From NCBI GenBank assembly GCA_943704525.1, contig CALSCQ010000049.1:1-23616 (forward strand): DNA of 23,616 bases, given 5' to 3'. This stretch comes from Pigoraptor vietnamica (taxonomy: Eukaryota; Opisthokonta; Filasterea). Position 1 is the stretch's first letter. The number at the start of each line of letters is the position of its first letter. Positions 2,992 to 21,055 of the stretch are shown here, in pieces. The position numbers and the translations under genes are program-made. Below the pieces are notes generated by a model. The model was not told the DNA's origin and did no database searches. It worked only from the letters and a program-made list of their open reading frames with translations.

Positions 2992-4679
2992 TCACACGCC
3001 AAAGGGCGCGGCGACGCCCGTTCCGTTGATAAAATTAAGCAGCGCACTCTGCAAGTCGGGGAGGGAGAGGGAGGACGTGTGTACGCCCACGTTGCGCACA
3101 GCCTGGACCAACACAGACTGCGGCTGGTTCATGACAAAGGACGGGGTCAAGTGCGTGAGTTCGCACCAAAATCGCCGCGCTTCGCCACGATATCGCCTGG
3201 AAAATGGCAAGCGCGCAAGATTAGATACTGCAGTGAGAGGAGATCATCGAACAGCGCAATGCTTAGAGAGACGCTCCGGTAAAGGCGACGTACCGCACTC
3301 CCTTGGCAAAGACCAAGCGATCCTTCTGAGTCCACGTGTGGGCGACATTGAGGAAGGCCTTATTTTTCTGCTTCGCGTTTTCTGCGAGGTCTCGCAGCTG
3401 TCGCAGAGCCTCCGCCTCGCTCGCCTCCAAGTCCTTCAGACGCTCTTCGAACTTGCTGCGTTCTTCGGCCGACTGCGACTGGAGGATTCGCTGCACGGCG
3501 TTGTCGATGACGCGCGAGGGGGCCTTGCTCATCACGGGCACGCGGCACATGGGGCACTCCTTATTGCCGAGACTGAGCCACGTATCAACGCACGAGCCGC
3601 AAAAGGAGTGCGAGCACGTCAACGTGACGGCTTTCAGCATCAATTCCTGCGTGCGAGAGAGCATGAGGTCAGACTGGGCCGAGCCAAAAAAAACCATTCA
3701 CTGACAGACGTACCTGACATACAACGCACGTAAATTCGTCCTCGAATCCCTGCGCTACGGGTTGAACAAACGGCGCATCACTCGTGGGCAGCCCGCCCGG
3801 TGCCCCGCTTAGAACCTCAGGCGTTCCGGTCGCCGCCGGTCGCGAGGCCCCGCCGTCCGGCGTCGCGGCGTCGCCTCCCGTCGCTAACCGTGGCCGCACA
3901 GCCCGAGCACCGTCGTCCTCTTCCTCGCGTTGTCGGCGCCTTACACTCCGTTCGGGCGCCTCTCCAACACTTCTCAAATCCACCGCGCCGTTCGCAGGCA
4001 CCGCCGCAGGGCCACCGGGAGCCACAGCCGGAGGCACCGCAATAAGAGGCTGCCCCGCAATTTGCTGCACAGCCGGACGAGGTATGGGCTGTGCGGGCGG
4101 CTGCGGAGTTTCCACGACGTACACGAAGCCACTCACGCGCGGGCTCACGTCGCCACAACCAAACGTCACGAGGTGCCCGTCGGCGAGTAGTTTTCGATTG
4201 AGAATGCGGACCCCATTCACGAATACTCCGTTGAGGCTGTTATGGTCGATGACAGACAGAGACAGCTGCCCCCCCGACACGACCGCCGACAACGTGGCAT
4301 GTACCCTGCGCCGATTCCATACGAACAAGTTAACGCACATGTAACGGTAGGTAAATACGGCAGTTACAGCTAGAGGCAGTTACAGCTAGAACGACAAAAC
4401 GAAGACTTCTGAAAGAAAACGTGCGACCCACCGGCTCATAAGGCGCGGATGAAGCTGAGAGTCGAACACAACGTCCGTTGACGCTCGCTCTCGTCCAATC
4501 ACTAGCGGAACTCCGTCGCGCAGGTGGATGAGCGCGGGAAGACCCGGATCTTGGGGACGTATGAGCCGCAAATGCGCGACGCAGGTACTGCAGCCATCGC
4601 CAGGAAGAGAAGCGCCGGGCTGCGGCGGCGCTGCGGGCGCCTCGTCAGTGGGCAATATGGAGGGCTCCGCGCCGCTCAT
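2992..4679 (-). CDS. CHFR-like E3 ubiquitin ligase, FHA and RING domains
   Basis: Four exons (4679-4432, 4305-3714, 3646-3294, 3196-2992) encode 465 residues. An FHA phosphothreonine-binding domain lies at about 25-135, with the family core GRE, SRVHA (82-86) and HNSLNGVFVNG. A Pro/Ala-rich linker with a basic-acidic patch (RRRQREEEDD) follows. A C3HC4 RING finger uses C276, C279, C291, H293, C296, C299, C311 and C314, which would recruit an E2 ubiquitin-conjugating enzyme. Residues about 325-375 form a Glu/Lys/Arg-rich coiled coil. The last exon adds an unfamiliar tail of about 68 residues. The FHA-then-RING order resembles CHFR and yeast Dma1/2, which act in mitotic checkpoints. RNF8 has a similar order but keeps its coiled coil before the RING. 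No PBZ zinc finger is seen. Start ATG 4679 is the first in-frame ATG. An acceptor-like CAG at about 4702 leaves room for an extra 5' exon. Confidence 0.85.
4359..4390. repeat. 16-bp perfect tandem duplication in an intron
   Basis: The 16-mer GGCAGTTACAGCTAGA occurs twice head to tail, at 4359-4374 and 4375-4390. It lies in the first intron of the FHA-RING gene. On the sense strand each copy contains CTGTAAC, so any branch-site-like element would be duplicated as well. Confidence 0.9.
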
Positions 4680-9277: not shown

Positions 9278-12200
9278 ATGGAGGCCGACCAGCGCATCCG
9301 CGTGCGGTCGTGGTTTCTGGGCCTCTCGCCCGCGGACCGCGCCGCCGCCATCACTGCGCACGATCAGACCGGCGTCGATGCCCTCCGCGAGATGCATGCA
9401 GCGAAGGTGCGCAGTGGCGACTGTCTCTTTTACGCTGACGACGATGACTTGGCGCCTGCCGCGAGCCTTGGCGGTGTGCGGCGCAGCCGGCGAAGAGCGT
9501 CCGCCGCGCCCCCTTCGGTCTCGGCTCGGCGGCTGTCGGGTGGTGTCTGCTCGCGGCGCACGGACGAGCTGATGCACCCGACGGAGGAGGCGCGGGAGGC
9601 GGACCTGCGGCTCGAGCAGGGACTGCGCCTCTGCGACACCGAGCGGTATCTCGACACGCTCACCGTCGCGCCCGAGTGGCTGTCGACGCCTGCGCGGGCG
9701 CGGGACTTTGTGCGCACGATGGAGGTGGTCTCGCACGGGGGATTCCTGCGGGAGGCGTGCTCGGTGCGATGGGACGAGGCGCGGAGGGCGTGGGCGTGGG
9801 GCGCCCCCCGGTGGTTCCAGGACATGGGCTTCCACTCGCTCGCGGCGTATGCGGCGGCGCGGCTGGAGAGGGCGCTGTGGGCCTATTACTACGAGGCACA
9901 CAGCCTCGACCCGCGCGCGGTCGGCGAGAAGCGGGCGTTTGGACCTCGCCGGCGCGACGGCAGCGGCGCCGGTTCGCTGCGGTCGGCCCTGGATCCCCTA
10001 CGGACAGGACTGCGCGCGTTTTGGCGCGAACTGCCACTGCCTGAACGCAAGCGCTTGGTGGAGGAGCGTCTCGGAAAACTTGTCGGAGAGATTTTGCGCG
10101 AGGATTTTCCAGACACACCGGGTGGGTAGGGCAACCTTGTGCGCTTGCGTCTCGATGGCTCCGGTGCCCCTTTGTGCCGTATCAGTCGTGCATTGAACAG
10201 GCCCGTTCTGCGTCGCAGGTCTCATCGGTTCGTTCCTGGACATGTCCGCGGGCGTCCACGGCCACGAGCAGGTGCTGTCGTTCAGCAGCGAGGTGCTCTT
10301 CAGCAGCGACGCGTTTGTGGAGTTTGTTTACCTCTCGCCGATCGCGCGCGCGGGCACGCCCGTGGACCGTCTGCTCCGCAAGGTGTGCCACCGCATTCAG
10401 TGCGCGTGCAGCGAGCGCATGGCCCTCGAGCTCATGAACGCAGACGCGCTCGCCGTGGAGGAGAAGGAGAGCGGGGGCCGCCAGAGCAAAGGGCGCAGGA
10501 AAAAGAAGAAGGCGCGCGCTGCTGTCGACTCGAACGCAGCGCGCTCCGTAAGCGCGAATGCGACGGCCGATGATGCGGCCGCGCCCCCCGATCCACCCGG
10601 CGGATCCGAAGGCAAGTCGCGCCGCAACAGTGACGGCGGTGCGCCGGCGTTCTTGGACAGGGTGGACGAGGAAAGCTCCGCAGCGTCGGGGCCCGAGGGA
10701 GCGCGGGTGGGGCCGTCGCGTCGACGGCGGCTACACAGCGAAGGGACCGACGTCGGTTCCGATGAACCGTTTGTGGCCGTGCCGTCGCCCGCGAAGGAAG
10801 CGGCGAGGGAGTCGCGCGTAGCTGGTGCGGGCAAGGGCGATGCATCGAAGCAAAGTGCGCACGTGCCAAGTGCCCTCGCCAATGGCCCGTCGCATGGCCC
10901 CGCGGTACTCTTGCCTGAGGGTGCAGGGCCTGTTCCCACCAAGCAGGCGTGGGTGGACATCGCGGACAGTCCGCGACGGGACGCTCCGCCACTGCGCGCG
11001 CAGCAGGGGTCATCTCCCCAAGGATCGCCCTCGCACAAACCGCCGCCGGCACCGCGCAGCGTACAGGAAGGTCTGGGCGAAGGTCGGCGTGCGGGGTCTG
11101 ACAGAGTCGTGCGGCGACTGGCGACGCCGGCGGCCGTCCCTGGCACGTCGCGCGACGCGGACGATGCTCTCACGAGTCTTGCACCGCCGCGTGCCCAGCG
11201 TCCATCGGCAAGCAAGAGCGAGGGTGAGGAGGAAGACGAGGAGGAAGGGCAGTGGCAGGTGGTGCGCTGGTCCTCGGAGCGACGGCTTGCGCAGCCCCGC
11301 GGTCGTTCGTCGGCGCGTGGTCGGACGGGCAGTCGCGGCGGCAGTACAGCGTCGTCGTCGGGGCGCAGCAGCCCCTTTGGGGACGGCGGCGGCTCCCACG
11401 TGCCAGCGACCCACGGGCGCGAACTCAGGCGGTCGCATTCACAGTCCGGTGGTCCCGCAGGCGTGCTGCCGATGAAGGCCGCCTCGAGCGGGGGCACACC
11501 GGCAGAGCGGCCTGTTCCGCTCGAACGACGCAACAGTGCGCCGACGCGGCAAGGCGTTGGCATTATCGCCGCGCGTCCCCCGCAGTCCCCAGCCGTACCC
11601 ACGACTCCTGTGCGCCCGTCGTCGCTAGCCATTTCGGCACGTCCGCCTGCGCCAACCGTTGCGCCTGCGACCGCACGACCGCCGCCTCATCCACAGCTAC
11701 CGTCGCGAGCAGGCAACGCGTGGTTGAACGGGAAGCCTTCGGCGCTGAGGAGACCGGATGAGACGGACTCGAAGGACGGCGTTGTGCCGTCGGATGCCGG
11801 CTTCGTCCCCGCCGCTGTGGAGGAACAGCGGGCACCGAAGACAAAGGCTACGTCACGTGTAGCAAAGAGCGAGTCTCCGCGGGTACAGTCGGCGACGGTA
11901 ACTCTGCCGCCGCCGCCGGGCGACTTCTCGCTCGACGGAGAGCCTTTTCTCTTCGCCACCCCCGCGCTCGCCGGTGCGGCGGTGACGTCATTGTTAGGGC
12001 TGGGCGGCGCTGCGGACGCACCGGTGTTTGGCGCGCACCCGCTCCAGGTGCTGCCGACGGCATCGCACGCTCCATCGCCCACAGCCGCAGACGCGCCGTG
12101 GGCAGCGACTGCGACCGACGCGTCGCGGCAGCCGAACTGGGACGCCCCCAATCGCCTTGAGCGGCGGCGCTCGTTTGGCGAAGCCGATCGACCGCCATCG

Positions 12201-13451
12201 AACCCAGACACGCAGGGGGCGAAGCGGCGCGCGGGCAGCGTGGACGATGACGAGCACATGCGCCAGAGCCGTGTCTCGGTGCGGTCTGCGCCACCTTCCC
12301 CGCACCCGACGGCATTTGTCGAGCAGCGGTCCTCCATCGCGCACCCTAGGCCCGCGCAGCTGGCCCCACTTGCCGTGCCCATCCCGCCGGATGCCTACGT
12401 GTTTGGCGACGATCCGACCGGTCGCGAGATGCTCGACTTCATGAAAGAGGTGCTCCGCTCGGAGAATGTCGCCGTGCGCGGGGACATTGTCGTGCGGGTG
12501 CAGCAGGTGGTCCGCGCCCTGTGGCCCGAGGCGCGCGTGGAGGTGTACGGGTCGGTGGCGACGGGCCTTGCGCTGCCCACCAGCGACCTCGACCTCGTCA
12601 TTTGCCGCATTGGTCCGTACGTGGGCCCCGCGGCGCCCGGCGCAGCGCCGTCCCTCGAGCCGCTCATCGCGCAGCTTATGGCCGCTTTGAAGGCTCTCCC
12701 GTGGTGCACGAATGTCCGCAGCATCACAACGGCGCGAGTGCCGGTCGTGAAGTGCACGGCTTTTCCGGACGCGGCGCGGCGGGGTGGCGTGCTTGTTGAC
12801 ATTACGTTTGGCACGGGCGCCATGCACAGGGGCGTCGCTGCGCGGGACTACCTTCGGGGACGTCTCACGGTCTGCAGCGCGCTCTTGCCGCTGCTCTTTG
12901 TGCTGAAGGAATACCTGCGCATCCGGGGTCTCAACGACGTGTACGAGGGCGGCCTCGGCTCGTACAGCCTCGCCGTGATGGCCATCTACTATGTGAAGCT
13001 GCGCTCGCCGCTGCCGACCCTCGGGAAACTCCTCGTGGACTTTCTCAACTTCTATGCCGCGTTCGATTTCACGCGCTATGGCATTTCGGTTGGCGAGGAG
13101 TCCCCGCGGGCGCTGCCGGAACCGGTCTCGCACGGCATCGTCATTGACGACCCCGCCACGCCGGGCGCGAACGTCGGCGGGGGGTCGTTCTTGATGATGC
13201 GCGTGCAGAGCGCGTTTGCAGAGGCCGCCCATCTCCTCATGGCACCGCGCGTGCCGCCGCAGCGGGCTGGTGGCATGCTCCCACTCGAGAATCGCGTGAA
13301 GCGACTGCTGAACGAGGACACGTGGCGGGAAGGTGCGGCAACGATGGAGTTCGAGTCGCGGTGGCCGCGAGGGCGCGTGCATGCGAGCGTCCCATCGAGT
13401 AAGCGGTCGCGGAGCACCGACGACGCCCTCACTCGCGAGCGTCAAGCTTAA
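9278..13451 (+). CDS. Trf4/TENT4-type non-canonical poly(A) polymerase, very long N-terminus
   Basis: Two exons (9278-10121, 10219-13451) encode 1358 residues. The nucleotidyltransferase domain is at the C-terminus, about 1005-1300. It has the polymerase-beta signature GS (G1059-S1060) followed by D1071 and D1073, with the third catalytic Asp at D1142 (LVDITFG). The PAP-associated part follows (LLFVLKEYLRIRGLNDVYEGGLGSYSL is spread over about 1175-1200). In yeast and animals such enzymes add short A tails that mark nuclear RNAs for exosome decay or stabilise mRNAs. The first 400 residues hold a partly ordered, Trp-rich region (FVRTMEVVSHGGFLREA, then FWRELPLPERKRLVEE) that I do not recognise. 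A Lys-rich likely nuclear signal (GRRKKKKAR) follows, then about 600 disordered Ser/Pro/Arg-rich residues. Start ATG 9278 is the first ATG in frame. No zinc knuckle is seen. Confidence 0.92.
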
Positions 13452-13575: not shown

Positions 13576-16500
13576 TCACACTTTAAGCAATGACACTTGG
13601 AAGCGAAGTTCGCCGACGCCGGGCTCCTCGAGCGGCACCCACACGTCGTTGAGCCGGCCCTTGCCGAGCTCGGCGAGTGGCAGCACACACCGCCCGAGCT
13701 CCTTGTCCTTGATCAAGCCCACTTCAACAACAGTAAACGAGAGCCGCTGCGTCAGCAGATCGTCTGCGCGGAAGTCGCGCGCGTCGTTCCACACGGGCAT
13801 CCCGGCCGCGTTCGAGCCCTTCGCCTGCCGGCTCGTCCACTTGTCGTTGCCCAAACGCCCGACGACGTACTTGGATGCCGTCCGCGGCGACTGCAGCCCG
13901 CGTGCCTCCACAAGCACCATCTGCACGACGTGGCGCTCGGGCTCCTGCACCACGGACCCGTCCTGGCCCTCCGCGCGCACGTACGAGAGCTCAAGGCGCA
14001 CCATGCCGGACTCGACGCCCTTGGCCTTGGCGTCCTTGGTGCCGGCAGGGACGAGCGCGGCCCAGTAATCGCGGCTGCCGACATCGAGCAGGTCGTCGAG
14101 GGGCACCTCGCACGTCGCAATGGGTGCGCCGGGGGCGTCCTCCGGGCACACCGAGACGACGAGGTGTTCGCGGCGCGGGTAGCGCACTGGCAACGCCATG
14201 CGCTCATTCCAGGACATGTCCAGCGGATCCCGCGGGTTCGTGAGGACGTCCTCGGTCCACTGCGTGCCGCTGCCGACGCGGATGGCGCACACGACCGACC
14301 CGCAGCGATCGGGGACATTGAGGCCGCGCACTTCGCGTGGCACGGCGAATAGGGTGCCCGGCATCGCCTCCTGCCCGTCGAGAGGGAGCAGCGCGAGTAT
14401 GATGTTGACCTGCCCGCACTCGACGTTCTCGAGGTCCAGCCAAAGCGACCGGCGGAAGCCCTCCTGCAGCCCCGCGAGCGGCACCGAGCAGCGGCCCATC
14501 GACTCGTCCTTCACCATGTCCTCGTCCCACACCTCGAGCTCGAGACGCGCCTGTTGCACGTTGTCGATGCGGCACTCAAACTGCTCGTTCCACGCGGGAT
14601 TCAGCGTCCGCTCGACGACGGCGCTGCGGAACTTCTTGTCGCCGACCCGAATGATCGCGTAGGGGTCGCTGGTGCCGCCAATGTCGCGCACGGCGAGGTT
14701 CGTCCCCCGCACGAGCGTGATGCGCAGCAGCTTGGGCTCCGGCGGGCGGCTGGTGAGCGGCACCACAAACTCCGCCGGCAGCACCATCATGCCCGCGAGC
14801 GTCACATTCAAGAAGTGGTCGAGGAACCCCGCGACGCCGGGCATCTCCATCAGGTCCACGGCCTTGAGCGGCTTGATCACAAAGTCGATCTTGGGTGCCT
14901 CGTAGAAGGCAATGCCGAGCGTGCTCACAAACGGCGGCTCGCGGATCAGCTTGCAGCGCACGCGCAGCCGCCCGCTCACCTCGACCTCCCGCAGCGCAAT
15001 CGGGCAGCTCATGAGCCCCACGTGCACTGCAAGTACCGCCTCCAGCTCCGTCTCAAACTTGAAGTCGACGTCCAGCACGGCCTCGTCGTCCTCGGCGCCA
15101 GGGTGCAGGCGGAAGCCGTTGAACTCGGGCGGCTTGCGCCCAAGGTCGAACCGCTCCAGGTGAATGGACGACACGAACGACGGGCGGTATTGCTCGAGCA
15201 TCGGGTCCACCGCCGCGACAACCGCTTTGGCGGCGTCGGCGCCATACGTCATCCACACGCGGCGGATGAGGCCGTTGAGCCACCGCGCCGTGTCCGCGTC
15301 GTCAGGAAGGGACGCCGGGCGGGCCGTGGGGAGCGAGACGGACGGGTGCAGGCGGCGGCACGCGTTGAGCTCCGCGCGGCGCGCCACCCACTTGCGCTGT
15401 CGGCTCTCGATCGCCGAGAAGAAAAAGTACACCCACGGCAGCCACATGAAGTGGAGACCCCACGCACCGCAGAGGTACGCCACGCCCATTCCCGCGGCAA
15501 TGTGCGGAAAGAAGTCCTGCAGGAACTCGGGAAGGTCCGACTCGTACGCGACGGGGAGAGCGCTCATCACCACCGGGACGGGCGCGGACGCCTGCGCTGC
15601 CTGTGCCGCCGCCTGCGCCGCCGCGGGCGACGTCGCCGTCGAGGCCACTGCCGACATGCGCCGCCGAGAGCCCGCGGGAACGGGCGGCACGGCGAGGGGG
15701 GCCACTTCCGGCGCCCGGCGATGCACATGCGGCGACGATTCGGCCGATGCCTGGGCGCTCGTGCGCGCAGTGGAGGGCTGCGACGGCGGCTGCGGGGTGG
15801 CATGCACGTGCGCGGCGACGTGCTCGTTGAGGGCACGGTCCTCCGCCTCCTCCTGTGCGTGGCGGGCGGCATCCGCGGCCTTGCGCTCGAGGTACTTGCG
15901 GCGCGCCATCATGTGCTCGACCCAGTCGGGGAGGTCCGGGATGGCAATCTCGACGAGCTTCTTGACGCCGACGATCACGTGCTCGGCGGCGAGAATGACG
16001 AGAAGGCGCGCGATCGGCGACACGTCCCACGGGAGCACCGCCTGCCGGCTCGTGAAGGCCACGACGGCCGCGTTCGTGATGACCGCACACGAGGACATGA
16101 ACGCAAGCACGTCGTACCATATCCCGATACCGCCAGCGTCGCGTCCAAATGGCCTGCGCGTGTGTGGGCGTGAGTGGCTTGCACCCAGACTAATCAGACT
16201 GGCCTTCGTGTGTGTGTGTGCACGCGTATAACGTGTGTGCGGCAGACAACGCCAGGCGCACCTCTGCGAGTTGGCGCACAGCTTGAAGGCGTCCGAACGA
16301 ATTTCGATCACATTGTTCAGAAACGCGAAGAGCGGCGCGAGCGGAAACGCCGCCGCAAACAGCGTGACGTAGCCAAACTGCACGATCATCTCCAGCCAGT
16401 CCTCAAACGTCGACTCGTACTCCTCGAGCTTGTTCTCGCACTCGATCTGCGCGAACAGAGTGCGGGTCAGCACACAGCCGAGAAGTTTGCACTGGAGACC

Positions 16501-16992
16501 CCACGCACCTGCGGCAGCGGCTTGCCCTCCCCGCCCGCCTTGTGAATGGCGTACATTTCGCGCGCGCGCGGAATAACCACTTCGTTGATGTTGCCGACAA
16601 TCTGCATCGTCACGAGCAGCGTCGCCAGCTGCGACCTGTGGACGCGCTGCCATGGTCAGAGTCCCCGGCCCTCCACGCACGCACGCTGTCGCCTAGAACT
16701 GCGGCTGGACGGTCGCCCTCCTGCCCACCTGAGCTTCTCCATGTCCTGCAGCACAAACGCGGCATAAAACAGCGACGAGTAGTAGTTTGGCAGCTCGACA
16801 ACGACGCGCTTGAGCACAAATGCGGCCTCGTAGTCGCTCTCCGTGCGGTGGTTCTCCCAGTCGTTGAGGCGCACGGACACGGCGCGGTAGAGGCCGTTCA
16901 GCTTGGGGATGAGCAGCGCATAGACGATCGTCACGCACGTCGCAGGCACGCCGCCGTAGTTCTCCTCCACATACTCGAGCAACTGCGAGCAG

Positions 16993-17043
<51 letters not shown>

Positions 17044-18109
17044 ACTCATCAGCCGACACACAAAGCGCGGTCACAACACAATTACATCGATCGTGCAGCG
17101 AGAGTGGGCGATGCGAAGAGAGAGAGGGACTCGCTTCCCACACATGCGATAAGTGGAGCAACACCATCACGGCCCCACATGCGGTGGAGAGGAGACAAGC
17201 CCGGCGCCCACCTTGAACTTGCTAAGCATGAGCGAGATGGCCGCAGCGAGCATCGCGGCCATGCACACGGCGCTGCCGACGTACTTGGCGTAACGCCGTA
17301 TCCGCGGGTAGTGCTTCTCGAGCTCGCCTGTAACAGGCGACTGCCGCACAGTACCGTAGAACTGCGGGCGGTCGGCCTCGCTCTCCTCAAACTCGGTGAC
17401 GTCCCAGCGGAAGGCAAGCACGGACGAGTGGCGCTTCCAGTACTCGAGAAAGAGCGACGCCCACACGGCAATGAAGACGGCGTAGACAAGCACGAGGGGG
17501 CTGTCCGCGGCGCCCGACGTGAGCTGGTTGTAGAAGACGAAGAGGCCCATGAGGACGGGGGCGATGAGCCACCCCGTGTAGAAGCCCAGCCACGCAAAGT
17601 AGAATGCAATCTGGTTGCCAAAGTAGTCGCGGATCTTGTCCAGCGGCTGCGTGCGGAAGCTGCCCGCCCACGTCTTGAGAAGGTGGTCGCGCGTCGCGTC
17701 GTCGTGGAGCCCGAAAATGCGCGAAATCACGCCTGCACGCGCAGCACATGTGAACAATGGAGCGCCAAGCACTCGGACGGGAGCCTAAAAAGCGTACAAA
17801 ACCCCACCCGCCGACTTGAGCTTGTCGACGAGGCACTCGCCCGGCGCAACGCCGACGCCGTTGCACATGAACGTGTCGCCCTTGCGGCCCCGGATGGACG
17901 CAAGGACGTGCATGACGATGCGCTGGCGGTCGAGCGAAGTGAAGAACGTCTCGGGCTTGTCGTAGCCGCGGAACTGGGTGATGGGGAGGGTGCCGAGGGG
18001 CGCGAGGCGGAAGGCGTCCGACACAATCGGCTGCAGGTGGCGCGTTCGCAGAGTGCAGGTCGTAAGGGACCACTCCAACGACAAACTAAGCCCCGTTTCA
18101 GCAACTCAA

Positions 18110-18149
<40 letters not shown>

Positions 18150-19081
18150 CACACGCACACACAACACACACACACGCACACAACACACACACACACACAC
18201 ACATACACACACAAGATACCGCAGCGCACCTTCTTCAGCTGCATTTCCTCGGCGGCCGCGATGAGCACGCCGTACGGCGCTCGCAGCTTGAAGAAGATTT
18301 CTTCCCTGTCGGCCGACTCCGCCATCTCGATATTGAGTCCCGCCTCCGCCATGCGCAGGCGCAGGTACTCGCGCATCGACGCCTCGCGCTTGTCCGCGCG
18401 CACCACGACGGCGACGTCAAAGTCCTCCACCATCAGCGTCCGCTTCAGAGCCAATATCCACAGCCGGCGCAGCGTCGAGAGCAGCGTCATGCGCTTGGTG
18501 GCAACGGCCACGTGCGCAGCAGCACGGAAGCGGTGCGCAGCGGGCGTCAAACGGGGACTCGTGTCCGGGCGGTTCAGTGCGTCGCCAGGGGCAGACTGGT
18601 TCGAAGCCGTCCTGCGTCGCAGTTCCTGCTGCGACTGCGGCGTCGGCGGCTGCAGCGGCTGCGGCGTCGGCGGCTGCAGCGGCTGCGGGATGGACGGTGC
18701 CGACGAAGTGCTCGCCGCCTGCGCCTCTGTGGCAGCCGCAACGACCGCCGCCATGCCCTTGGAGTTGCGCCGGGGCTGCTGCGGCGGCGAATTGTGCGGG
18801 GGAGTGCCGCTGGACTTGGCGCCCGCGGGCGAAGTCGCTTCCTGCGACACGTTCACGACAGGCACACCAAGACCTTCGGGGACGGACGAGCGCTTCAGCG
18901 ACTTGAGCGTTGCCGCCGACTTCACAACCCCAAACACGGAGGCGAGCGAACTGCGCTCGTGATGGTCGTGGTGCTCGTGTGCGTCGGACACACGGCGGTC
19001 GGGGTGCTGCAATTGCGGTCCCTTAGCCACGTCTGGAGTGCGAAAGGGACCGATCACCGAACTCACCTCCTGCGACGCCAT
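13576..19081 (-). CDS. Anoctamin (TMEM16)-SMP-C2-C2-C2 fusion protein
   Basis: Eight exons (19081-19067, 19006-18230, 18030-17808, 17732-17212, 16982-16729, 16635-16509, 16446-16262, 16153-13576) give 1559 residues. Residues 1-190 are disordered with His and Pro/Gln repeats. The anoctamin cytosolic domain spans about 195-370. The ten-helix membrane domain runs about 375-775, with DWENHRTESDYE, LPNYYSSLFYAAFV, FPLAPLFAFLNNVIEIRSDA and GGIGIWYD, all hallmark TMEM16 segments closest to the TMEM16K type. A linker follows, then a hydrophobic hairpin-like stretch (913-948). An SMP lipid-transfer domain (985-1167) runs from WLNGLIRRVW to VLPAEFVVPL. Three C2 domains lie at 1174-1290, 1305-1428 and 1441-1559. 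C2A keeps the acidic calcium ligands D1191, D1197, D1244, D1246 and D1250; the other two lack a full set. The last exon alone holds the final TMEM16 helices, the SMP domain and all C2 domains. A likely role is lipid scrambling and transfer at membrane contact sites. The exon 3 acceptor is the least certain splice site. Confidence 0.93.
16993..17042. repeat. 50-base A run (T on the sense strand) before a 3' splice site
   Basis: Fifty uninterrupted A residues lie in intron 4 of the anoctamin-SMP gene (16983-17211). On that gene's sense strand this is T50, separated from the acceptor CTGCTCGCAG by only a few bases, so it acts in effect as an oversized polypyrimidine tract. Its exact length may be limited by sequencing accuracy. 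Confidence 0.9.
18112..18213. repeat. (CA)n microsatellite in an intron
   Basis: About 100 bases of CA repeat with a few CG and AA interruptions lie in the second intron of the anoctamin-SMP gene (18031-18229). On the sense strand it reads TG, beginning shortly after the 5' splice site GTGCGC. Confidence 0.95.
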
Positions 19082-19282: not shown

Positions 19283-21055
19283 TCATTGCTTTGCCTCGGC
19301 GGCCTTCTGCTCGAGCCACTTCTCCCACCGCGCCATGCGTTCGGCGCGCTGCTCCTCCGTTTCCTCCACGACATAGCTCGTCTTCCCGTCCCACTGCGCC
19401 GCTTCCAGGCGCCGCCCGGCAAAGAAGCGCCCGTTCATGCGCTGTATGCACTTGGCCGCACCGTCGGCCTCCTTGTAGCGCACAGACACGACACCGTCAG
19501 GGTGGCGGTCGTAAACGGTCACCTTCACGACCTCGCCAAAGGTGGCACACTCTTGCCTGCGAAGCCAACAAAGCACTCAGCCACCAACACAGACAGCAAT
19601 GCACATTAACCAAAGCAACGCACATTAACCAAAGCAACGCACATTAACCAAAGCAACGCACATTAACCAAAGCAACGCACATTAACCGAAGCAACGCACA
19701 TTAACCAAAGCAACGCACATTAACCAAAGCAACGCACATTAACCAAAGCAACGCACATTAACCAAAGCAAAGCACATTAACCAAAGCAAAGCACATTAAC
19801 CAAAGCAACGCAACCACAAAAGTGCCATATCAGTGCGGAAGTTCCCCTCTTCCAACGGAGATCCTCCAAGTTCGTCGACCGTGGCCAATCAAGGGACAGA
19901 ACACGCATCAGAGAGCGCACAGGGAAATGCCTCAGCCAAACGCACCGAATGTCGTCCGTGATCTCGTTCAGCAGCGTCGGGTCCTCGTCAAACTCGCTCG
20001 GCGCGAACATGTGCTTCAACACGACCACGCACGCGGCCTTCTGCGCCTTCCGCTCCTCCGCGCTGACCTTGTTGTCCCACGCGAGCAGCCTGTCCGCGCC
20101 CTTGCCCTCCTTCTTCTTCTTCTTCTTCGGCCGCCGCTTCACCTCCACGTCCGCCCGCCGCTCAAACTTGGCGCGCTGCACGCTGATCTTGTGCCCGCGT
20201 AGGTCGCTCCCGTCGAGTATCACCAGCGCGTTCGGCACAGCCTCGGGCTTGATGTACGTGAACAGCCCGTCTCCCTTCGGGTTCCCCTCGGCGTCGCGGT
20301 AAAGCTTCGCCGTCGGGTGTCCGCTGTCGTCCGGACGCGGCAACCCGCACTTGGCCATGTGCGCCACAAACTCGTCCATAGTGACGTCCAGCGGGAGGCC
20401 GGTGACGTACACGCTGCTGTTCTTCTCGTCGGGTATGTCGTACCACCCGCCCTGCGCCTGCTGCGCCGCAGGGCCCTTGCCGCCCTTCGCATTCGCAGCC
20501 TGCGCTTGCGGCCCCTTCGCCTTCGGCGCAGCCTCATCGCCCCGCGCGTGGCCGTCGGCGTCGTCGTCGTCCTCGCTGTCGCTCTCCTCGGGATCGCGCT
20601 TCCGCTTGGCGTCCTGCAACTCGCGGTACACCGCATACTCCCGGATGCGCGCCTGCTCCTCGAGCACCTCGCGCGGGTCCGCCTGCGCGCCATCGTATGC
20701 CCCGCCGTAGTTAAGCTGGTACTGCAGAATGACGGACTCGTCCACGCGCGGAAACCACGCGCCGCGCGCAGAGTCCCACTCGTACACAGTGCCGTCGTTT
20801 GGGTCCACGTACGTCGCGCCGTGTGCGTGCGCACCGCCCCTCGATTCTTGTGGCGCTGCAGGTGCGGGCTCGTCGTCGTCTCTCTCCATCACCTGCCCAC
20901 AAACGCCCGTAAGCATTTGCACGCATAATGAAATGACGAGAAGGTGTGTGCGCGCAGTCGCAGTTGAAGTGATAGCACATTGCGCACGGACGGAGTGACA
21001 GCGAAAGGACTTGACTCACCGTTCGCGCAAGCTCCTCAATCTCGCGGCGATTCAT
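19283..21055 (-). CDS. HTATSF1: Tat-SF1/CUS2-type U2 snRNP splicing factor
   Basis: Three exons (21055-21020, 20892-19946, 19556-19283) encode 418 residues. The N-terminal segment TYVDPNDGTVYEWD followed by AWFPRVDESVILQYQLNYGG is the Tat-SF1 signature. An RRM occupies about 171-255 (VYVTGLPLDVTMDEF to ISVQRAKF). A Lys-rich likely nuclear signal (about 262-276) follows. The second RRM (about 299-392) is a U2AF-homology motif: it contains CVVVLKHMF, DEDPTLLNEITDDIR, DRHPDGVVSV and the R-x-F loop in NGRFFAGRR. In yeast and humans this domain binds ULM motifs of SF3B1, and the protein helps U2 snRNP assembly and branch-site recognition. An acidic Ser/Asp patch lies at about 113-125. The protein lacks the long acidic C-terminal tail of human Tat-SF1 and resembles short CUS2-like forms. 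Its first exon is only 36 bases. The second intron is 389 bases and holds a minisatellite. Confidence 0.96.
19601..19809. repeat. Minisatellite, 11 tandem copies of a 19-bp unit
   Basis: The unit GCACATTAACCAAAGCAAC repeats head to tail exactly 11 times. One copy has a single change (CCGAAG), and the ninth and tenth copies end in GCAAA instead of GCAAC. It fills more than half of the last intron of the Tat-SF1 gene. On the sense strand each unit reads GTTGCTTTGGTTAATGTGC. A repeat this even suggests recent expansion. Confidence 0.97.

Follow-up and report, generated by a model that had tools for sequence, protein, structure and literature searches.

A Pigoraptor vietnamica gene that appears to join a TMEM16K-like anoctamin to an extended synaptotagmin in a single protein

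Lipid scrambling and the transfer of lipids between membranes are usually described for separate proteins. On the scrambling side, TMEM16K, in which some activity persists without Ca2+ (PMC6718402), is causative for the ataxia SCAR10 (PMC7335067). On the transfer side, the extended synaptotagmins (E-Syts) and the tricalbins carry a membrane hairpin placed just before their SMP domain (PMC8093936, PMC13286939). For yeast Ist2, scramblase activity was reported in 2025 to sustain Osh6-mediated phosphatidylserine transfer in vitro (PMC12617493). Here we describe a gene of the filasterean Pigoraptor vietnamica in which a scramblase-type anoctamin and a lipid-carrying tether appear to be joined in a single protein, which would then unite both activities. 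The gene lies on the minus strand of the window, which is an entire contig of 23,616 nucleotides (CALSCQ010000049.1, or C20; 64% guanine plus cytosine (GC)) of a 32.5-Mb assembly made up of 1395 contigs. The other C-numbers used below designate contigs of the same assembly.

The fusion gene (13576..19081, minus strand) is made up of seven exons, located at positions 19081-18230, 18030-17808, 17732-17212, 16982-16729, 16635-16509, 16446-16262 and 16153-13576. The start codon is at 19081 and the stop codon ends at 13576. All six introns are of the GT...AG type, and the spliced translation is uninterrupted, with a single terminal stop, giving a product of 1579 amino acids (aa) that comprises a TMEM16K-like anoctamin and an E-Syt-like half. 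The exon ends were set by eye, from frame and homology, and the start codon is that of the model, unproven. Along this single chain are found, in order, an anoctamin, a linker, a hydrophobic stretch, an SMP domain and three C2 domains, of which the second is below cut-off.

The first half of the protein begins with a region devoid of Pfam matches over cut-off N-terminal to aa 230. Exon 1 (18230..19081, minus strand) encodes this domain-free N-terminus, up to aa 229, and the greater part of the Anoct_dimer stretch (aa 230-287), the remainder of which is encoded by exon 2. The corresponding profile (PF16178) scores 41.2 bits for a cut-off of 22, its best stretch covering positions 25-83 of 221. 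The anoctamin membrane domain (aa 392-806; 15898..17634, minus strand; exons 3-7) matches the Anoctamin profile PF04547 over its whole length (positions 1-460 of 460) with 443.5 bits, and TMEM16K (5oc9) with an E value of 6.6e-85. Overall, the anoctamin part occupies exons 1-7, and exon 7 holds just its end, past the residues of the Ca2+ site in transmembrane segment (TM) 8, which are in exon 6. It is followed by the linker (aa 807-929; 15529..15897, minus strand), an unbroken coding frame within exon 7 in which the part from aa 831 to 929 has a high content of Ala, Pro and Ser.

The second half contains the SMP lipid-transfer domain (aa 1006-1187; 14755..15300, minus strand), for which both PF17047 (SMP_LBD, 38.7 bits, cut-off 27) and PF25669 (SMP_MUG190-like, 66.7 bits, cut-off 35) are over cut-off. 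The C2 profile reaches 131.7 bits on the full-length protein, where it passes as two stretches; when the 671-aa C-terminal part is taken alone, three stretches pass. The first C2 domain (aa 1196-1295; 14431..14730, minus strand) scores 90.4 bits alone and aligns to E-Syt2, and the third (aa 1466-1564; 13624..13920, minus strand) scores 39.2 bits alone. Between them, the second one (about aa 1309-1440; 13996..14391, minus strand, limits approximate) is degenerate, its 17.7-17.8 bits (E value 0.004) falling below the C2 cut-off of 22 bits. Judged by their scores, a chance origin of these domain matches is excluded.

The original prediction, made from the letters of this DNA, had given the position and strand of the gene correctly, and the presence of an anoctamin, an SMP domain and C2 domains in a single chain is borne out by the single 1579-aa frame and by the Pfam scores. 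It had also described the anoctamin as followed, within one exon, by the SMP and C2 domains. The common reading frame holds, but the anoctamin spans exons 1-7 and has only its end in the last one. Likewise, its three C2 domains come down to a first and a third that are clear and a middle one that counts only as degenerate. Finally, its order of anoctamin followed by SMP is right but incomplete, since it overlooked the hydrophobic stretch of about 40 residues that separates the two.

This hydrophobic stretch (aa 930-972; 15400..15528, minus strand) lies directly before the SMP domain. On the Wimley-White octanol scale, its best 19-residue window reaches -15.7, more hydrophobic than in any other region compared (anoctamin, -13.0; a region near aa 200, -3.4; SMP, -3.2; C2 part, +1.0). 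No Pfam model matches it. From its length and its position, the place where E-Syts and tricalbins have theirs, it is probably an E-Syt-type membrane hairpin. Hence, an entire E-Syt, anchor included, seems to be attached to the anoctamin, and the fusion would keep both membrane anchors.

Among solved structures, the top match of the SMP region is E-Syt2 (4p42, a structure of SMP and C2AB), with 129.5 bits and an E value of 1.4e-36, the alignment being colinear through SMP and C2A. The first C2 domain carries six acidic residues in two loops (D1211, D1217, D1264, D1266, D1270 and E1271), which would have the role of the Ca2+-type loop residues of other C2 domains. By eye, such an acidic loop set is missing from the third C2 domain. 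E-Syts have at least two C-terminal C2 domains, and the fusion protein has two clear ones and a weak one. Their hairpin stands at the N-terminus of the protein, whereas here an anoctamin precedes the proposed one. The protein is therefore not classed as an E-Syt but as a fusion of which one half is E-Syt-like.

The identity of the anoctamin half was assessed from its scores against solved structures, in which TMEM16K ranks first (289.1 bits), followed by TMEM16F (203.8), afTMEM16 (177.1), nhTMEM16 (174.1) and TMEM16A (166.7). Within this set, to which Ist2 and ANO8 do not belong, the anoctamin half is TMEM16K/ANO10-like. Of the two relatives first proposed for it, TMEM16K is thus backed by scores (289.1 bits), but Ist2 is absent from the solved structures used. 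Residues N444, E448, D497, E500, E529 and D533 of TMEM16K, which we take to be the Ca2+ ligands of TM6-8 (positions counted on the aligned chain), align with G631, E635, D675, E678, E707 and D711. All five acidic positions of the site are therefore retained. The side chains of the TM10 site of TMEM16K are Glu259 and Asp615 (PMC6718402); both are retained as well in the alignment, as E455 and D794. As TMEM16K scrambles partly without Ca2+, Ca2+ would stimulate the anoctamin half rather than strictly switch it.

The two halves meet inside the last exon, which remains unbroken to the stop codon. At this base composition, a stop-free frame of 858 codons such as that of exon 7 would occur by chance with a probability of about 1e-8. 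Coding signal was scored in 150-base windows, with codon preferences learnt from exons 2-6 plus one neighbouring gene, exon 7 being excluded. All 17 windows of exon 7 are positive (0.22 to 0.68), with the frame of the gene the best of the six, and this includes the two linker windows (15852-15703, +0.30; 15702-15553, +0.35). Control frames taken from the six introns and the two flanking intergenic stretches are negative in 24 cases out of 24, the highest value being -0.01, in intron 3. An earlier codon run, whose training set included the C2 part of exon 7, is concordant; in that run, GC at third positions reaches 0.84 and 0.88 in the two linker windows. Searched against the assembly with very common words ignored, the junction DNA (15250-16160) has no match elsewhere other than a decayed copy, which corresponds to its last 138 bases. 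No tandem repeat is detected in the junction at default threshold; those of the fusion gene are far from the joint (a poly-T in intron 3, a GT run in intron 1 and a short 24-base repeat in exon 1). The original prediction had pointed to an assembly error as what would undo it. With a coding signal continuous across the linker, and a junction without tandem repeat or alternative contig continuation, an assembly join or a pair of neighbouring genes appears unlikely at the level of the DNA.

In both halves, the long soluble part would be cytosolic. Moreover, TMEM16 proteins and SMP domains both dimerise (PMC9692390, PMC8667587, PMC13286939). Hence, a chain that runs from the anoctamin through the linker and the proposed hairpin to SMP and C2 is compatible with the topology of its parts. 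From the residues and segments read in the open frame we infer that the likely function of the protein is that of a Ca2+-responsive tether of the endoplasmic reticulum (ER), which would scramble ER lipids and transfer them to a second membrane. The anoctamin and the hairpin would both be seated in the ER membrane, possibly in a dimer, and the SMP-C2 part would extend into the cytosol. Upon a rise in Ca2+, the first C2 domain would dock on the second membrane, and lipids would be carried by the SMP domain from one cytosolic leaflet to the other. With Ca2+ acting as a stimulus on its TM6-8 site, the anoctamin half would rebalance the ER leaflets as lipid leaves or returns. It is thus reasonable to regard the protein, in the terms first used for it, as a one-piece machine that would extract, move and re-equilibrate lipids. 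Taken together, we consider it rather probable that this is a real gene fusion, in which a complete TMEM16K/ANO10-type anoctamin, a linker of about 120 residues and a complete E-Syt would work by this mechanism.

Several points weigh against this reading. In the TM6-8 site, the TM6 ligand N444 of TMEM16K is replaced by G631, and, judged by eye, neither the second nor the third C2 domain seems to depend on Ca2+. The proposed hairpin is not outstanding on the Kyte-Doolittle scale, where its peak (1.35) is lower than that of a segment within the SMP domain (1.63). An in-frame ATG is found just before the hydrophobic stretch (VVMSALP), from which a shorter E-Syt product could be made in addition. 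For the final 99 linker codons, the probability of lacking a stop by chance is 0.12 at this base composition. The open frame alone is therefore a weak argument there, and it is the codon signal that carries it. As for the mechanism, coupling between Ist2 and Osh6 was not suggested by the first yeast data, for which the authors note the sensitivity of the assay (PMC12617493). A 2026 review, in its excerpted text, sees no in-cell evidence yet for scramblase-sustained transfer, and considers that Ist2-Osh6/7 would hardly require a rebalancing of the leaflets, Osh6 being a strict exchanger (PMC13286939). An SMP protein need not be such a strict exchanger.

The alternative that survives best accepts the fusion as real and leaves the two activities uncoupled: the joining would only place a scramblase and an E-Syt together at a contact site, or let them share a Ca2+ signal. 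The long Ala/Pro/Ser-rich linker is in its favour, as no rigid path for handing lipids over is implied, and so is the fact that coupling is unproven in cells for Ist2-Osh6 (PMC13286939, PMC12617493). We regard this version as a serious contender, even though we would not bet on it ahead of the coupled mechanism. In a second alternative, again with a real fusion, the anoctamin half would only anchor the protein in the ER and dimerise it, without scrambling lipids, and the protein would work as an ordinary E-Syt. The changed TM6 ligand (G631) would fit this idea. However, the membrane domain covers the whole anoctamin profile and is nearest to TMEM16K, a scramblase, and the conservation of all five acidic ligands in TM6-8 and of both side chains at the TM10 site is unexpected for a mere anchor. 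This makes the anchor-only role rather unlikely. Finally, it is very improbable that separate head-to-tail genes, for an anoctamin and for a stand-alone E-Syt starting at the ATG before the hydrophobic stretch, were wrongly joined by the assembly or by the reading of exon 7: although each half is self-complete with its own membrane part, that ATG is in frame and the flanking genes are as close as about 125 and 200 bases, the anoctamin frame has no stop codon before the SMP part, so that a separate anoctamin in this frame would end without one, the coding signal runs right across the linker without a non-coding gap, the junction is free of tandem repeats, and no second contig continuing the anoctamin differently was found in the search that ignores very common words.

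The preferred reading, a coupled fusion, was also placed in the context of the genome by searching the assembly, which may be incomplete, so that the counts are lower bounds. Anoctamin matches (seven in all) fall in two places, C20 and C1344. The second anoctamin (C1344, about 28000-33600, plus strand) has many short exons and is ANO1/ANO6-like. As an exon-joined approximation it scores 367.6 bits against ANO1 and 111.8 against ANO10, the reverse of the fusion protein, and none of three SMP profile searches of the assembly hit that contig. When the whole E-Syt half is used as query, nine matches are obtained including the window, and only the window spans the full length. Among the loci found, no other encodes a TMEM16K-like anoctamin, and no other SMP protein has more than one C2 domain. 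The searches showed no chlorophyll-binding protein, and a 20-base 18S pattern was without match.

Other SMP proteins are nevertheless present. Indeed, the idea that the fusion protein might be the sole SMP protein of the genome, suggested by PF17047 (one match among two candidates, in the window), was rejected when PF10296 added C934 and C62. On C934, the match is an SMP fragment. The C62 locus (6510-5272, minus strand) encodes a stand-alone TM-SMP-C2 protein (SMP, 29.1 bits; C2, 80.7 bits; E-Syt2, 48.1 bits) with one N-terminal hydrophobic segment seen by eye, to which a downstream C1-like stretch may belong. It matches residues 75-385 of the 671-residue E-Syt half with 31% identity. A further locus (C999:28570-25856, minus strand) is a single 905-aa open frame of the type TM-SMP-C1-C2-RhoGEF, with its N-terminal hydrophobic segment again assigned by eye and an SMP match of 19.3 bits, under the cut-off of 21.9. 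It possibly represents another unusual combination, in which a lipid-transfer-type domain would be joined to a Rho exchange factor.

Part of the E-Syt half has a copy on another contig. Positions 2314-3061 of C679 (minus strand) are 73.9% identical at the DNA level, over 798 alignment columns, to positions 14633-15387 of the window, from the end of the proposed hairpin to early C2A. This copy was rejected as independent support for the fusion: it carries stops and frame breaks, does not reach the anoctamin, and is a decayed partial copy. As such, it suggests that C20 and C679 come from one genome or from close kin. In collections of viral, bacterial and archaeal contigs, no relative of the fusion was found (five pattern matches, none confirmed), a result that says little for a eukaryotic gene.

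By eye, the genes that flank the fusion gene lie about 125 and 200 bases away from it. The nearer one (10242-13448, plus strand) is convergent with it, at about 125 bases, and encodes a Cid1/TUTase-like nucleotidyltransferase whose long N-terminal region has no match. On the other side, a 19-base tandem repeat (19595-19812; 11.5 copies, 97% alike) appears by eye to be intronic in the neighbouring gene for an RNA-binding protein. Further away (3263-4379, minus strand), FHA and RING domains in adjacent open frames perhaps belong to a single gene for an FHA-RING ubiquitin ligase.

Among the open-licence papers listed in literature searches, no title or abstract beginning describes an anoctamin-SMP fusion, which may nonetheless be known from database records. 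None is described either in the excerpted text of three reviews (PMC5507252, PMC9692390, PMC8667587). If both activities are united in a single chain, where an SMP domain of the E-Syt type takes the place of an ORP, the question of coupling would become addressable in one purified protein. The fusion also suggests a partnership between TMEM16K and E-Syts. The broadest claim, that an ER scramblase and an E-Syt form an obligately coupled lipid conveyor in a natural fusion so far unreported, and that this fusion predicts a TMEM16K/E-Syt partnership elsewhere in eukaryotes, is put forward only tentatively, as it may well prove too strong.

Compared with known systems, the first half of the fusion protein is close to TMEM16K/ANO10, the ER scramblase (5oc9), to which it is aligned over chain positions 107-631 of 667 with 289 bits, and with which it has in common the five acidic Ca2+ ligands of TM6-8 and the two side chains of the TM10 site. 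However, in the solved TMEM16K structure the chain stops shortly past the aligned part, whereas the fusion protein adds about 770 residues containing the probable hairpin, SMP and three C2 domains. With E-Syt2 and the tricalbins, it shares a hydrophobic stretch, SMP and C2 in the same order, with SMP-C2A aligned at an E value of 1.4e-36. In contrast, the hairpin of the E-Syts is N-terminal (PMC8093936), and the one proposed for the fusion protein is preceded by an anoctamin.

More distant systems also combine a lipid carrier with a membrane protein. In protists and amoebae, CETP/BPI domains with a C-terminal PqiA associate a TULIP lipid carrier with a multi-pass, proposed lipid permease in one protein (PMC5507252). 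Thus, the fusion of a carrier with a membrane transporter has a distant precedent, even if the TULIP branch and the membrane domain are different and those proteins are extracellular, at the plasma membrane. ATG2 with ATG9, TMEM41B and VMP1 also combines lipid transfer with scrambling (PMC13286939), but in separate proteins, with a bridge-like transfer domain, and for the growth of autophagosomes. Finally, yeast Ist2 with Osh6/Osh7 offers the same association of a TMEM16-like ER scramblase with a lipid transfer protein, at contacts between the ER and the plasma membrane. The yeast system consists of two reversibly associating proteins, with an ORP-type transfer domain and Ca2+-independent scrambling (PMC12617493), whereas the P. 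vietnamica protein has one chain, an SMP domain and Ca2+ ligands that are kept.

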